The notes beneath the pieces are model-generated. The model did no database searches. It saw only the letters and a program-made list of their open reading frames with translations, and was not told the origin of the DNA. Position numbers and translations under genes: made by a program. Shown here piece by piece: positions 39,230 to 46,427 of a DNA stretch of 64,000 nucleotides (its first letter is position 1; each line of letters opens with the position of its first letter). Source of the DNA: Fragilariopsis cylindrus CCMP1102 (taxonomy: Eukaryota; Bacillariophyta; Bacillariophyceae; Bacillariales; Bacillariaceae); the NCBI GenBank assembly GCA_900095095.1, contig FMBT01000376.1:124001-188000 (forward strand), written 5' to 3'.

Positions 39230-39401
39230 TGGAGATTATATTACACGTCAGATGCAAATCCAGCTACGGTGGTCAGATCTGTTTCGCTATTACCCCTGGA
39301 TGTGTATTCAATTATTCCATAGAAATTGAGGCTCACCTAAGTTAGCGTGGTCCTCCATCCACTAAAAGTACGGAAGCAAAAGCCGCACGATTGATATATA
39401 T

Positions 39402-39692
39402 TATTGGGAATAACTTAGTTTCATACCGATTACGACATTACTACAAGTAACATCCGGGTTACTTGATATAGTCAATCCTCACTGATAGCGTATCGATGAT
39501 CTCTGGCAGTCAAAACAGCCACTGTATCAACCACCACTGTTATCACTCTTAATTCAAACCCTAATTTTATAAGCGTATAAGGAAGTAGTTTATTAAGAAA
39601 TATTCATTGTTGTGGTCCTATAGTAATTGATATCTAATCCAATAGAGTCAATATATTAGCATATACTGTAGCGTAATAATTGAATTCCATCA
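39402..39692 (+). repeat. 5' LTR (291 bp)
   Basis: Base-for-base identical to 45999-46289 by reading. Confidence 0.95.
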
Positions 39693-39707
39693 GTTTGAAT
39701 TAAGAGT
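39693..39707 (+). other. Primer-binding position, complementary to own LTR
   Basis: GTTTGAATTAAGAGT directly after the 5' LTR is the exact reverse complement of 39545-39559 inside the LTR (and its copy in the 3' LTR). It could be primed by folding of the element's own RNA. Alternatively it pairs with a tRNA fragment: ACTCTTAAT resembles the anticodon loop of tRNA-Lys(CUU) as I recall it. Confidence 0.6.
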
Positions 39708-39773
39708 CGGAGTTAGACATCGTAAGGTATACCAACGAAATCTTAACTGTACACATTATAAGGACTATCCATA

Positions 39774-42017
39774 ATGTCTACAACCAGTACAACTGGTACT
39801 ACCGGAGGTACCCCGTCCACAGGTACTGATGGTGGAAGCGCTAAAGCAGCAGCGCGAAAGAAGAAGAACAACAACAAGAAGAAGAATAAAGCAGCGAAAG
39901 GACGTAAATCGTCATTCAATGGTTCACAACCAGAAGGGAGTGTTTTATTCAAATATGTAATAGAAGATAACTCAAATCAAGCAACTCAACTGCGTGACCT
40001 AATTGAAATCCTACCAGTCTTTGCCACGAGCTACCCACTATGGCCATCTTCCATCAGGAACATGGTACGATTAGATCCAGATAAATATCTTACTAAGCGT
40101 CCTAACGCTATCGATGAAGGATATGCCAAGCTGGTTGAAACAATGGGTGCCGATGGTAAAGCTGATGGAGGAAAGAAGGTCATATACACTGACCCACTTA
40201 AGCACGAGAGTGCAATGGACCACTGGAAGTTGAAAGTGAAGACTGAAACTGATACGATGGAAAAATACAAGTTAAATGGCTCCAACTTATTTGAGATTAT
40301 TAGAGGACAACTCGACGACCCAGTACTAGGTAAACTAGCACATGATCCAGAGTATCAGAAGGCACTTGTAAGCCAATGTCCAATCGAACTGTTAACTTTG
40401 TTGAAGTCAGCATGCAGCCTAGGTGACGGCAGTACAGTAAACCCGAAGCTCGCAAGGCTCCAATTATTCCGAAAATCAGTTTCATTCCAACAGAAGCCTA
40501 GGCACAAGAACGTGTCTATGGAAACATCTAAATACAAACGAACCTTTGAAGTGCACATCGACAGTGTCATGGAGAAGGCTGGATTGTTTGCATTTGGGAC
40601 TTCATGGTGGGATCCATTTTTAAAAGCAGATGGCCAATCCCTAGCAACGTTTATTGCTATGGATGTTGCTAATCAAAACAAATATAATGCTTTAGTTAAA
40701 GATGAAATTATTGGTATGTTAATGATAGAAGGATGCGATTCGGAAGGACTCAAGAACCATTTGAAAAATGAGTATAAGATTAATGGAAAGATTGATTGCT
40801 ATCCCACCACGTCTTCGAAAGCAGCAGACCTCATTGATTCGTATATTGAGGTAGGTGGTAACAACAACAACAAGAATCAAAACACAACTAACAATGATAA
40901 TGAAGATGAACAAGTGGCTGGTATTCATGCTACTGATCAATCCGATGAATCGCAAAGCAATGATACAATTATTCCTGAAGAACAACCTGATGAAGCAATG
41001 CATGCAGCCCTCGCGGCTGTACAGGCTGGAGGACCGGAAGACCCCAACTACTACTCTCCACTAGAGATCGATGATATTGACTTTGAATCGGAACAAGTAG
41101 CTGGTATTCATGTTGCAGTGACCACTCGTGACGAATCAGAAGACGAATCAAGTGGCGCTTCAAGTTCATATCACTTATCAGATCATTACTATTGCCCTTC
41201 AGATGATAGTGATGATACCTCAAGTAGTGAAACTAACGATTCAAGCCAAGGCAGTGGTATGCCTGGACTCCGTATTCGGAATGCTGACGACTCATCCTCT
41301 AGTGATGACTCATCAACCGGCGACTTTTACCCTATTCTAGATAGTGGTAGTACCAATCACATAACTCCAAGCGTCCGTTCTGTTCGTGACCATCGTGATC
41401 CCATTGGGTTCGATTTCGATACCTTTGATCAACACATCAAGGCATTGACAACTGATCCTGCTGAATCTTCCATCGTTGATTCGATAGTCGATGATATGGT
41501 TCCAGTCAGGGGAATTGAACGCAGTGTCTTTAAAGTCCCATCAGCATTGAGGTCAGCCATCGGCTCATCCTCTTGCCTTCATCAATCACAACCTTCTACG
41601 ACCATGTTTCCACCGGTGCCAAGCATCGTCATCACTAATGACCAAGATGATATCAATGATCAAGATGATATCAATTCACAATTGGCAGAACCAGTTGTTG
41701 AACGCATCGACCCTGCGGGTCGTGTGCCAGTTAGAGTCCAACAAGAGCAATTTGTACACATGGACGACATTGTTTGTAACAAAACCACGTTGATTGATAT
41801 AGCTGGAGAGCCGACCAACAACTGGGTACAGTTCGTTGAATCTAGACGTTCTTTCCCCATTCAAGTAACTCGAACTCATCGAGTTGTACAGGTTACTAAA
41901 GCTTCATTAACATTGTCGCTAGATATCCCCAACGCTTATCTTAACTACTACCCTAAAAGAGTAGGAGTGACCAAAAGCCGAATTGATCCACCGGATTTTC
42001 GGCAGGGCGAGAACTAA
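39774..42017 (+). CDS. gag: Retrotransposon Gag-like ORF1 with protease-like motif (747 aa)
   Basis: The N-terminus is Thr/Gly-rich, then a Lys run (residues about 28-45), then the helical capsid-type region (PLWPSSIRNMVRLDPDKYL and ATFIAMDVANQNKYNALVKD). Acidic Ser/Asp-rich linkers follow. No CCHC zinc knuckle is visible. At residue 523 there is a DSGSTNH motif (YPILDSGSTNHITP) like the copia protease active site. The final 220 residues are unassigned. The stop is at 42015-42017. The pol frame is open from 41987, overlapping by about 30 bases in the -1 frame. Confidence 0.85.
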   Translation: MSTTSTTGTTGGTPSTGTDGGSAKAAARKKKNNNKKKNKAAKGRKSSFNGSQPEGSVLFKYVIEDNSNQATQLRDLIEILPVFATSYPLWPSSIRNMVRLDPDKYLTKRPNAIDEGYAKLVETMGADGKADGGKKVIYTDPLKHESAMDHWKLKVKTETDTMEKYKLNGSNLFEIIRGQLDDPVLGKLAHDPEYQKALVSQCPIELLTLLKSACSLGDGSTVNPKLARLQLFRKSVSFQQKPRHKNVSMETSKYKRTFEVHIDSVMEKAGLFAFGTSWWDPFLKADGQSLATFIAMDVANQNKYNALVKDEIIGMLMIEGCDSEGLKNHLKNEYKINGKIDCYPTTSSKAADLIDSYIEVGGNNNNKNQNTTNNDNEDEQVAGIHATDQSDESQSNDTIIPEEQPDEAMHAALAAVQAGGPEDPNYYSPLEIDDIDFESEQVAGIHVAVTTRDESEDESSGASSSYHLSDHYYCPSDDSDDTSSSETNDSSQGSGMPGLRIRNADDSSSSDDSSTGDFYPILDSGSTNHITPSVRSVRDHRDPIGFDFDTFDQHIKALTTDPAESSIVDSIVDDMVPVRGIERSVFKVPSALRSAIGSSSCLHQSQPSTTMFPPVPSIVITNDQDDINDQDDINSQLAEPVVERIDPAGRVPVRVQQEQFVHMDDIVCNKTTLIDIAGEPTNNWVQFVESRRSFPIQVTRTHRVVQVTKASLTLSLDIPNAYLNYYPKRVGVTKSRIDPPDFRQGEN

Positions 42018-45000
42018 AACACTCTGTGTTCTCTTCGCCCATACCAACAGATTCGCCGGATAGGCCGTACAGGGAGGATGACAAGTCATCCATTCTTCCA
42101 ATACTAGATGCATCTACAGCTCTAATACGATTAGCATACGCTTTCGGAAATGTCACATTTGATCCTGATGATACAAGCAATACCACTACCCATAGTTTAC
42201 TTCCTCATCTTCAGCTTACAGCCAAAGCTAAGAAAGTAAGGAGTGTGGGCGATACAAAAGTACACAGAGGTAGCATACCTCTTAATACACTTGTACTGGA
42301 TAGTGGAGCTACTGTCAACTTGATGAACAATCCAGATTTCCTTACGAATATTAGATCAACGTCAAAAGCAATAACCATACACTGTGGAGGGGCAACTGTC
42401 TCTAACAACCAAGTCGGAGACATCTGTAACGAGCTTAGGAACCTTCCTTTACCTCACACAGGTTATTTCTTTCATCCAACTGGGGTGGCAAATCTCTTAT
42501 CACTTGCACGTGTATCAAAGGAACATCGAGTCTTCCTTGATACGTCCATAGAAAATGCATTTTATGTTTATGATGATGATGATAACTATATCAAGTTTGA
42601 GTTGAATGACAACAACCTGTACTGCCTACATGTAGACGATGGCACGTCGCCACACGTCTTCCTCACCACAGTAGGGAACAAATCCAAAACCTATTCAGAC
42701 CTTGATGTGCGCAGAGCCACACTCGCAAGAGACATACAGAATCGGCTTGCCTTGCCATCTGATGTCGACCTAGCCAATTCACTTGAGAATGGAACCATAC
42801 CTGAATGTGGTATCAACAGAAGAGACATTCGAATAGCCAAGGATATCTTTGGTCCCAATGGAAACTCACTGGAAGGAAAGACAGTACAGAGGAAAAGCAA
42901 GCTCGCACGTAGCGATGAAGTCATGGATCTACCAAAAAGCATAGTCGATGAGTACACCAAAGTAACTCTAGGCATAGATGTAATGCATGTAAACGGAAAC
43001 AAGTTCCTAATTGCTATATCAGAGCACATTGGCTACATACAGACTATTGCAATAGCAACCAAATCTGAAACTAGCTTCCTCTTTGGAATCAAGAAAATGA
43101 TATCACAATATCAACTACGAGGTTTCAAAGTAGTACACATACTAGGAGACAATGCATTCGAATGTTGCAGATCAACCCTTGAAGCAAATCCGTATAACAT
43201 CAAACTAACGACATGTGACAAGGACGGACACGTACAGATTATTGAGAGAGGAATTAGATTTGTTAAAGATAGAACCCGCGGAATTAGAGCCATGATGAGG
43301 ACCCTCAAGTTTAAACAACTCCCACGTAGATTTCTGATTGAAGTCATATACAAGACTGTTATCTTAATCAACTCCCTTATGAGAAAGGGAGGAGTGAGCC
43401 AATTCTTATCTTCAAGAGAAATAATAACCGGAAAGAAACTAAGACTACCTCCACATGAAATAGGGCAATTTGTACATGCCTCAGTTGGTGAAACTAGCAA
43501 CATGACTGATGAATATCGAACGTTTGAATCACTATATATCGGACGCAATGATAATGGCAGCGGACACTACGTGTTTGATATAAGAACTGGATGCAGGAAA
43601 TCTGTACCTCGAGTTACGCCATTACCTATGCCACAAAGAGTAACTGATCGAATCAATGCTATGGGGTTACATGATAAACAACCTGAAGGCATTGTGATAG
43701 GAGACAGAAATGATCAACAGACAGTGGACGATTTTAACATTGGTCTTGATGAAAATGAAGAAGATATCGATGATGCTACTGACGCGTCATTTGATCCAAT
43801 AGAAGACAATGATATTGAAGAAGCAGGTGATCATAACGTCGTGGACTATGCAGAAGATGATAATCAGTTCGAACACTTCCCTGAAAATGATGAGGAATCA
43901 ACAGTTGAAAGTGAAGAAGCAGGAGTGCCTGTGGACAACGAAGATGATGACGATCCCATGCTTGAAGAATTAGATAATAACAACGAAGATAACGATAACA
44001 ATATAACTGATGATGAGTCTAATGAAGACTATGTTATGGAAGATGTTGATGAATCAGATGATGATAATGACGTTAGCAGTAATGATGATGATACACCACG
44101 CGGACTAGACAACACTCTAGATGGGCCGCACTGGAACAACTGTATACACACACAATACTGCATGTCAGTGATCTCTGGTTATGGCAATTTAGAAGCCACA
44201 TTGTCAACACCACAATACGGATTTCAAAAAGGACTGAAAGTGTTTGATAAAGAAGGCTACAAGGCTACTATTAAAGAATTGGACACTAATCTTATCGGTC
44301 GAAACGTTATTGACATGCTTCCACCGGAAGCAATCACCCAAGATATATTTAAGATGTCATTGGGTTATCTTATGTTCCTGAAGAGGAAACGTTGTGGAAA
44401 GATCAAGGCACGAGGATGCGCTGATGGTCGACCCCAACGCGAGTACATCACTATAGATCGATCGAGTTCACCAACTGTTGCTAATAATGCCCTATTTGCT
44501 TCATGTTTAGTCGATGCTATTGAAAAGAGAGCAGTTGCCATATGTGACATCCCAGGTGCGTTCCTACAGGCTGACTGGCCACAGGATGAACCATGTTACA
44601 TCAGATTTGAAGGAATTATGGTCGATATGATATGCCAAATTGAACCCAAATACCTTGATAATGTTAAGCACAACAAGCACCGCACACGAAAGTGGATGGT
44701 TGGTAAGCTTACCAAGGCAATCTATGGCACGCTGCTTGGAGCCCGACTCTTCTATGATAAACTAAGAGGTCTCTTAGAAAGCTGGGGCTTCATTATTAAT
44801 GACTACGATGAATGTACGTTCAACAAGATGGTAAATGGTAAACAACTCACTGTTCAGTTTCATGTGGATGATTTAAAAATATCACACATGGATGAAATAG
44901 TTATCAAAGATATGGTTAAAGATTTGAATGGAATCTTTGGCACAAATGGTACATTACTTGAAGCAAGTTATGGTAAAATACATGAATATTTAGGTATGAC

Positions 45001-45928
45001 AATTGATTTCTCAGAGGAAGGTCTAGTCAAATTTACTATGTATGACTATCTTGAAGATATACTTGCCGAATCACCCGACGATATGAAAGGCATTGCTGTA
45101 ACCCCTGCTCACTCGAAGTTATTCCAAGTGAATCAGGAGTGTGAGAAGCTTGATATAAAAACCATGGACTGGTTCCACCGTACGGTGGCTAGACTACTGT
45201 TTGCTTCTAAAAGAGCAAGACCAGATCTACAAACTAGTGTTGCGTATCTATGCACAAGAGTGGCATGTCCTGACAAGGATGATTATGGAAAGCTTAAGAA
45301 GCTTATCGAATATCTTCGTGAATCAATCCATCTTCCATTGATATTGGGTTGGGATGAATCCGGCATTCTTACATGGAGTGTGGACGCATCCTTTGCTGTC
45401 CATATGGATATGCGCAGTCACACCGGTATGGCATTAACGCTAGGCCGAGGAGCCCTAATATCAGGCTCATACAAACAAAAGATTAATACCAAGAGCTCCA
45501 CTGAATCTGAATTGGTTGGTGTGGACGACGGTATGCCTTTCATTATGTGGATAAGACTATTTTATATTGAGCAGTTTAAGATGTATCCTGATGACCATCC
45601 TATGAAGGAAGTAGGTCAAAAGAATATCATCCTGCAAGATAATACCAGTACAATCCAACTTGAAAACAATGGAAGAAGATCTAGTGGTAAAAGGACTCGA
45701 CATATTAATATTCGATACTTTTACATTACTGATCAAATCAAAGAAGGCAAGGTGTCAGTAACTTATTGTCCGACTCTAGAGATGGTGTCAGACTACTTTA
45801 CAAAGCCACTGCAAGGTTCTTTGTTCCGAACCCATAGAAATGCAATCATGGGGGTGAGTGAGCAAGAGGCACACAAATTTAAAATTGCATACGAGTCTGC
45901 TAAGAAGCAATCTCGAGAGGAAGGTTGA
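41987..45928 (+). CDS. pol: Retrotransposon Pol ORF2: protease, integrase, RT, RNase H (about 1,300 aa)
   Basis: The frame is open from 41987; there is no early ATG (a GTG stands at 42026), which suggests expression by -1 frameshifting from gag. Domains by residue counted from 42026: protease LVLDSGATVNLM (Asp 92); integrase D-D-E as GIDVMHVN (about 317), ILGDNAFE (about 375) and QIIERGIRF (about 407); acidic linker 560-690; reverse transcriptase CDIPGAFLQADWP and QFHVDDLKISH (about 946); RNase H WSVDASFAVHMD, KSSTESELVG and LQDNTSTIQL, ending TKPLQGSLF. All catalytic residues looked for are present. Confidence 0.93.
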   Translation, partial: STGFSAGRELKHSVFSSPIPTDSPDRPYREDDKSSILPILDASTALIRLAYAFGNVTFDPDDTSNTTTHSLLPHLQLTAKAKKVRSVGDTKVHRGSIPLNTLVLDSGATVNLMNNPDFLTNIRSTSKAITIHCGGATVSNNQVGDICNELRNLPLPHTGYFFHPTGVANLLSLARVSKEHRVFLDTSIENAFYVYDDDDNYIKFELNDNNLYCLHVDDGTSPHVFLTTVGNKSKTYSDLDVRRATLARDIQNRLALPSDVDLANSLENGTIPECGINRRDIRIAKDIFGPNGNSLEGKTVQRKSKLARSDEVMDLPKSIVDEYTKVTLGIDVMHVNGNKFLIAISEHIGYIQTIAIATKSETSFLFGIKKMISQYQLRGFKVVHILGDNAFECCRSTLEANPYNIKLTTCDKDGHVQIIERGIRFVKDRTRGIRAMMRTLKFKQLPRRFLIEVIYKTVILINSLMRKGGVSQFLSSREIITGKKLRLPPHEIGQFVHASVGETSNMTDEYRTFESLYIGRNDNGSGHYVFDIRTGCRKSVPRVTPLPMPQRVTDRINAMGLHDKQPEGIVIGDRNDQQTVDDFNIGLDENEEDIDDATDASFDPIEDNDIEEAGDHNVVDYAEDDNQFEHFPENDEESTVESEEAGVPVDNEDDDDPMLEELDNNNEDNDNNITDDESNEDYVMEDVDESDDDNDVSSNDDDTPRGLDNTLDGPHWNNCIHTQYCMSVISGYGNLEATLSTPQYGFQKGLKVFDKEGYKATIKELDTNLIGRNVIDMLPPEAITQDIFKMSLGYLMFLKRKRCGKIKARGCADGRPQREYITIDRSSSPTVANNALFASCLVDAIEKRAVAICDIPGAFLQADWPQDEPCYIRFEGIMVDMICQIEPKYLDNVKHNKHRTRKWMVGKLTKAIYGTLLGARLFYDKLRGLLESWGFIINDYDECTFNKMVNGKQLTVQFHVDDLKISHMDEIVIKDMVKDLNGIFGTNGTLLEASYGKIHEYLGMTIDFSEEGLVKFTMYDYLEDILAESPDDMKGIAVTPAHSKLFQVNQECEKLDIKTMDWFHRTVARLLFASKRARPDLQTSVAYLCTRVACPDKDDYGKLKKLIEYLRESIHLPLILGWDESGILTWSVDASFAVHMDMRSHTGMALTLGRGALISGSYKQKINTKSSTESELVGVDDGMPFIMWIRLFYIEQFKMYPDDHPMKEVGQKNIILQDNTSTIQLENNGRRSSGKRTRHINIRYFYITDQIKEGKVSVTYCPTLEMVSDYFTKPLQGSLFRTHRNAIMGVSEQEAHKFKIAYESAKKQSREEG

Positions 45929-45987
45929 AACTAGTTAAAAGAGATATATATGTACATCCTAAAGTGATTGCTTTGACAATCAGCATA

Positions 45988-45998
45988 GGATGGGAGTG
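45988..45998 (+). other. Polypurine tract
   Basis: The purine-rich GGATGGGAGTG stretch abuts the 3' LTR and is the expected plus-strand primer site. Confidence 0.7.
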
Positions 45999-46289
45999 TA
46001 TTGGGAATAACTTAGTTTCATACCGATTACGACATTACTACAAGTAACATCCGGGTTACTTGATATAGTCAATCCTCACTGATAGCGTATCGATGATCTC
46101 TGGCAGTCAAAACAGCCACTGTATCAACCACCACTGTTATCACTCTTAATTCAAACCCTAATTTTATAAGCGTATAAGGAAGTAGTTTATTAAGAAATAT
46201 TCATTGTTGTGGTCCTATAGTAATTGATATCTAATCCAATAGAGTCAATATATTAGCATATACTGTAGCGTAATAATTGAATTCCATCA
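45999..46289 (+). repeat. 3' LTR (291 bp)
   Basis: Identical to the 5' LTR by reading. Confidence 0.95.
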
Positions 46290-46427
46290 TATATATATGT
46301 TAAATCAAACAAAAAAACGGCGTGATTAAAAATTGTATTTTTTTAAACGCATGGCTAAATTTTTACTGACGCGTGCGTGCTGATGAAAAAAAAGCGGGAC
46401 TTAAACAAGCGTTGATTATGCGCAGGA

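Follow-up and report, generated by a model that had tools for sequence, protein, structure and literature searches.

Analysis of the window, the whole stretch of 64,000 nucleotides studied here, revealed a copia-type LTR retrotransposon at positions 39402–46289 whose primer-binding site (PBS) is the exact reverse complement of a segment inside its own LTR. With high probability, judging from the comparison of related copies, the element is a self-primed retrotransposon of the Tf1 type that uses the first 13–16 nt of its own RNA as primer. The original prediction, that a copia element is primed by its own LTR, gained support from joint differences between the two sites, and no full-length match was found among tRNA genes for 14 amino acids.

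The steps of self-priming, from the start of the RNA through cleavage and priming to the copying into the PBS, are ones that we infer, and they would proceed as follows. Transcription would start at the A that opens the LTR segment (39545 in the window), and the first 13–16 nt of the RNA (15 in the window) would fold back onto the PBS, about 100–160 nt downstream. The RNase H of the element would cleave the RNA where the duplex ends and free a 3' end, from which minus-strand DNA would be primed into U5. Since target duplications mark the LTR end exactly in four family A copies, the 3' end of the primer should lie at the 3' end of the segment. The plus strand would then copy the primer and write the sequence of the LTR segment into the new PBS; a change in the LTR would thus be carried to the PBS, which predicts joint differences between copies.

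Table 1 Features of the retrotransposon in the window
Feature	Position	Strand	Remarks
Target-site duplication, 5' copy, TATAT	39397..39401	+	TA-repeat run blurs extent
5' LTR, 291 bp, TATTGGGA...CCATCA	39402..39692	+	direct repeat
Putative priming segment ACTCTTAATTCAAAC	39545..39559	+	exact complement of PBS; A at 39545 preceded by TC; predicted 5' end and first 15 nt of element RNA
Primer-binding site GTTTGAATTAAGAGT	39693..39707	+	directly abuts 5' LTR end at 39692
gag ORF, stop to stop	39762..42017	+	first ATG 39774
pol ORF, 1313 aa	41987..45928	+	copia-type RT, residues 802–1028, Pfam RVT_2 E 1.7e-11
Polypurine-tract-like stretch AGGATGGGAGTG	45987..45998	+	immediately 5' of 3' LTR; identical letters in other three A copies
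3' LTR, 291 bp	45999..46289	+	identical to 5' LTR (100% over 291 nt)
Copy of the segment in 3' LTR, ACTCTTAATTCAAAC	46142..46156	+	same sequence
Target-site duplication, 3' copy, TATAT	46290..46294	+	flank of 3' LTR

The element combines a copia-type RT, paired LTRs and a 5-bp target duplication, as in Ty1/copia elements (Pseudoviridae), and the duplications were clear in the other three A copies (ATACT, ATAAA and CTTGA). No Pfam family matched the gag ORF at E 0.001 or better, and no Pfam match to an integrase was found in pol; inspection of pol by eye revealed a protease-like DSGA motif before the RT and a TKSSTESEL stretch after it, which we take to be RNase H-like. A second protease-like motif, DSGS, lies in gag (41340–41351, residues 527–530) and also in the gag of the copy on C350; inspection of gag in two B elements, one C element and one F element revealed none. 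The gag and pol ORFs overlap at 41987–42017, pol being read in frame −1 (or +2) relative to gag, and GGATTTTC occurs at 41993–42000 and near the gag end in the A2, B, C and F elements inspected, which suggests a conserved frameshift site, presumably unlike that of Ty1; gag and pol of the L054 element are ORFs without overlap. TATTGG opens the LTRs in family A and in one D copy with a visible LTR pair, and TGTTGG those of the others; the LTR start of the F element, placed by motif only, is TATTGG too.

The exactness of the complementarity, with the PBS directly abutting the LTR, and its low probability of arising at this position by chance had both been noted from the sequence, and both held. 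In 2000 Markov resamplings of the window LTR, the longest run at the junction was 13 nt, compared with 15 observed, so that none reached the 15-nt run. A search of the window for the segment/PBS sequence with up to two mismatches revealed three sites only (39545–39559, 39693–39707 and 46142–46156), compared with a mean of 0.32 and a maximum of 2 in shuffles, and no inverted repeat in the 64-kb window other than the segment/PBS pair is 13 nt or longer and spaced by 95–170 nt. Among 109,787 bases of other stretches of the same genome, one other such repeat was present, a GC-rich hairpin not following CA. A perfect 22-nt GC-rich inverted repeat, its arms 171 nt apart, lies at 1054–1246 of the C83 stretch, upstream of an RVT_1 match; no LTR end was seen at this site, which is possibly a small hairpin transposon. 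Across the assembly (67.9 Mb, 818 contigs), the 15-mer with up to one mismatch occurred at 10 sites, of which three are the exact sites of the window element and two lie in the LTRs of the close copy on C638; the same search with the 15-mer read backwards gave 12 sites, which puts stray near-matches at chance level.

A DNA search with the LTR and leader identified three more two-LTR copies, on C638 (99%) and on C271 and C350 (85–86%; pol contains stops in both), and one further fragment of 67 nt. A search with pol gave at least 56 matches (35 of 922 candidates scored), grouped into about 35 elements, 24 of which, the window element included, were tried, and 20 leaders were located; all these counts refer to related elements of one genome. 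No 5' LTR was found within the stretches taken for C324:605k, C83 and C578; in an exact-pattern search, C324 and C578, though not C83, proved to have a concordant pair at a greater distance. For C41, the leader was absent from its expected place in the stretch examined. At C324:605591–619705, the positions of LTR segments, PBSs and pol matches suggest a family D element nested in a family B element.

Every one of the 20 located leaders contained an LTR segment of 13–16 nt complementary to a site adjacent to the LTR, and the complementarity was perfect over 13–16 nt in 17 of them, with one mismatch each in C638, C803 and C431. The pairing reached the LTR end in 18 leaders and stopped 1–2 nt short in the other two. 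Twelve of the 20 showed paired LTRs, and the other eight LTR ends were read from the ...CA junction and from likeness to relatives; the stretch around the F element yielded no LTR pair. The distance from the segment start to the LTR end varied from 101 to 161 nt (19 leaders), and the pairing is therefore no by-product of a fixed spacing. In 19 of the 20 leaders, TC precedes the A of the segment, at which the complementarity stops, and this context is initiator-like. Among 19 leaders there were 11 distinct segment strings, grouped into eight main types (ACTCTTAATTCAAAC, ATTGTTAATTCAAAA, ATTATTTATTATAGAA, ATTATTTATTATAAAA, ATTATTTATTAATTA, ATTGTTATTTATAAA, ATTGTTATTTGATAA and ACTTATTTATAAA), each with its own partner site. 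When the resampling was applied to each of 19 leaders, the observed run was reached in 0 of 2000 resamplings for 18 leaders and in 2 of 2000 for the nineteenth, which has a mismatch; certain LTR starts used in this test, those of C437, C42 and the D, E and F leaders, were placed by motif or only roughly, which leaves the junction side unaffected.

Genome-wide, at least 150 RVT_2 matches were present, and those listed included members of this clade and several stronger-scoring copia lineages. Scans for relatives elsewhere gave 17 and 55 peptide-pattern matches in viral contigs (with the pol protein and the pol alignment, respectively) and 44 in contigs of other genomes (with the pol alignment), none of which was confirmed. 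A tRNA-primed Ty3/gypsy control was sought in 5 kb around one RVT_1 match, where no LTR pair was found.

Comparison of close copies revealed that the two sites differ together, as the original prediction had asked of copies of one family, and independent divergence was not seen beyond the single mismatches of three of the 20 leaders. In a re-pairing test on 12 distinct rows over the first 13 nt, 155 of 156 positions matched in the observed pairing, compared with a mean of 111.9 and a maximum of 142 in 20,000 random re-pairings. Of 381 positions compared between the window element and C638, four differ: U3 has one difference, the final letter of the segment another, and the opening letters of the PBS two. 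Three of the four lie inside the two sites, where they form one compensating pair and one mismatch, a clustering with P of about 0.002 if differences spread evenly. A1 and A2 differ by two further compensating pairs. Three pairs change on both sides in the four-copy A alignment, a number reached by 111 of 500 shuffles (low power), and the covariation score of this alignment was reached by 7 of 500; in the six D leaders, three pairs change on both sides, as in 0 of 500 shuffles. Between C66 and C198, 3 of 107 R-U5 positions differ, all of them inside the segment, and the 15-nt PBSs differ at exactly the three complementary positions. BLAST aligned only 160 nt of these two, with 8 mismatches, 6 of which are in the two sites. 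The U3 of C66 does not align with that of C198, and past the PBS their leaders are different as well; C66 may therefore have a mosaic LTR and have taken a ready-matched segment/PBS pair from another element.

Families B and E differ at one pair, G-C versus A-T, and genome-wide searches with the exact B/E patterns gave 63 segment sites and 28 PBS sites. All 28 PBS sites have an upstream segment and agree with it (15 G-C, 13 A-T), though these pairs are exact-pattern picks with one informative position, and five are also among the 20 leaders. As they fall into two subfamilies, the 28 pairs come close to one event seen many times. Because the elements are related, neither the 20 leaders nor the 28 pairs are independent, and we count seven joint nucleotide differences in four comparisons. 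In one apparent element, the LTR segments at C112:4038 and C112:11430 differ (G and A) and the 5' one matches the PBS (T); this element is perhaps a recombinant.

Chance, or plain shared ancestry of an inverted repeat, would have in its favour that the families are AT-rich and related. Resampled sequences almost never attain the observed run, however, and joint differences disfavour both versions; chance origin was rejected on the resampling, the re-pairing test and the uniqueness of the inverted repeat, and we regard the probability of either version as next to nil. A tRNA primer demands closer attention. In the stretches taken from a tRNA search, ARAGORN identified 63 tRNA genes (42 distinct) for 14 amino acids, without Leu, Pro, Tyr, Cys, Gln and Asp, a set against which the absence of a fitting tRNA is established in part. 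The original prediction had set self-priming against a host tRNA with the full 15 nt; none was found among these genes, the best match being 11 nt, and none of the 10 genome sites within one mismatch lies in an ARAGORN tRNA gene. Nine of the 11 distinct PBS sites match tRNAs of this set over at most 7 nt, as is the case throughout families B to F, and the two A1 sites have an 11-nt match that is displaced by 6 nt from the LTR end. In the window, ATTAAGAGTCG of the PBS is complementary to nt 29–39 of tRNA-Lys(CTT) at 11 of 11 positions, and the A2 PBS to nt 29–39 of tRNA-Asn(GTT) at 10 of 11, likewise starting 6 nt from the LTR end. This part of the tRNA is presumably the region used by half-tRNA primers, with an end point as in Drosophila copia. 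The tRNA-Lys alternative named in the original prediction has the 11-nt match in its favour but was rejected as the main reading, given the 6-nt displacement and the short matches (7 nt or less) of families B to F to the tRNAs of this set. A narrower version, in which the 5' half of tRNA-Lys(CTT) cut at nt 39 (of tRNA-Asn in A2) primes and the LTR segment is secondary, can draw on these two matches and on FunCo1, whose PBS ATTAAGAGTCT, assigned to an internal tRNA-Lys region in the available passages of PMC5445492, resembles part of the window PBS. A half-tRNA copia PBS is complementary to the anticodon region of a tRNA and abuts the LTR, whereas the family A matches begin 6 nt inside an LTR end that the target duplications fix, and families B to F lack the match with the tRNAs of this set. 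Both features set the elements apart from FunCo1 and other copia elements primed by half or internal tRNAs. Half-tRNA priming would also leave the matching differences of the LTR segment and the 15-nt pairing up to the LTR unexplained, and we judge it distinctly improbable.

It is about equally improbable that the pairing serves something else (packaging, masking of the PBS, or dimer or circle formation) and that another RNA primes. The joint differences show pairing or copying and not priming as such, and the tRNA set without six amino-acid families leaves room for this reading. The helix between the two sites, which it shares with self-priming, was present in the predicted folds of all 19 leaders tested and also in leaders with a shuffled interior (the window leader had a z of −3.18, with 1 of 200 shuffles as stable); since the helix follows trivially from the complementarity, folding adds little. 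Against pairing for another purpose stands the place where the pairing ends: in 18 of the 20 leaders it runs up to the LTR end, where a primer must end, and in two it comes within 1–2 nt. Priming in trans, in which a short RNA derived from the LTR, or another packaged RNA through its 5' end, anneals to the PBS, is better regarded as a variant of self-priming that makes the same sequence predictions, as identical letters serve cis and trans. Nothing speaks directly against it; self-priming of Tf1 is usually drawn in cis. We consider the trans variant rather unlikely, and the small probability we allow it lies within that given to self-priming as a whole.

With self-priming as the preferred reading, we lean, with some reserve, towards the broader view that a whole diatom copia lineage dropped tRNA primers in favour of self-priming, probably as a development separate from that in Tf1/sushi and in plant TAR elements, and that the primer sequence is free to change as the primer rewrites the PBS in each cycle, leaving natural records of LTR-to-PBS copying. 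If this is true, self-priming arose or was kept in distant LTR elements, here diatom copia elements with at least eight self-primer types, and primer-to-PBS copying could be studied from the genome sequence of close copies. One diatom genome paper, in its available passages, discarded LTR candidates for which LTRdigest detected no PBS (PMC7466962), and self-priming is unmentioned in those passages and in those of PMC4247016. If the PBS step of LTRdigest matches tRNAs, self-primed elements would drop out of such an annotation. The self-priming experiments cited in the accessible parts of the literature concern the Ty3/gypsy element Tf1.

The genome contains 27 matches to the silicon transporter family PF03842 (best 757 bits), a family that we take to mark diatoms. 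Like CoDi elements, the elements described here are copia-type elements of a diatom genome, and CoDi is probably the wider group to which they belong; we assume here a resemblance of the window RT to CoDi references. The main text of PMC2806351 mentions neither priming nor tRNA, and PBS once only, as a buffer; the available passages of PMC2774666 and PMC8147415 mention neither a primer-binding site nor self-priming. Our literature search, with subscription papers and supplements outside its scope, found no report of self-priming in diatom copia elements. The original prediction called copia self-priming unusual, which needs correcting: for plant elements of the TAR lineage of Ty1/copia (Houba, Osr-1) it has already been predicted, from complementarity between the PBS and the 5' LTR that had to span at least 10 bp and begin 0–5 bp past the LTR (passages of PMC6317226). 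The diatom elements share the copia type and this complementarity with TAR elements, but occur in a diatom and not in land plants, and show joint differences, whereas joint change is not reported in those passages. A part of the discussion in PMC3601003 raises the possibility of self-priming in an early LTR element. For Tf1, a Ty3/gypsy element like Tf2 (passages of PMC7175516), self-priming is established: its RNA anneals to the PBS through its first 11 bases and is cut by RNase H between bases 11 and 12 (passages of PMC7175516 and PMC4600332). The Tf1/sushi elements (Tf1, Tf2, Tj1) described in such passages share with the diatom elements an LTR-adjacent PBS complementary to an LTR segment, whereas the diatom RT matches RVT_2 and is copia-type instead of Ty3/gypsy-type, the segment is 13–16 nt long instead of 11 bases, and the RNA start and cut are predicted. 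By these comparisons, the diatom lineage would share the priming scheme of Tf1 while standing outside the Tf1 lineage.
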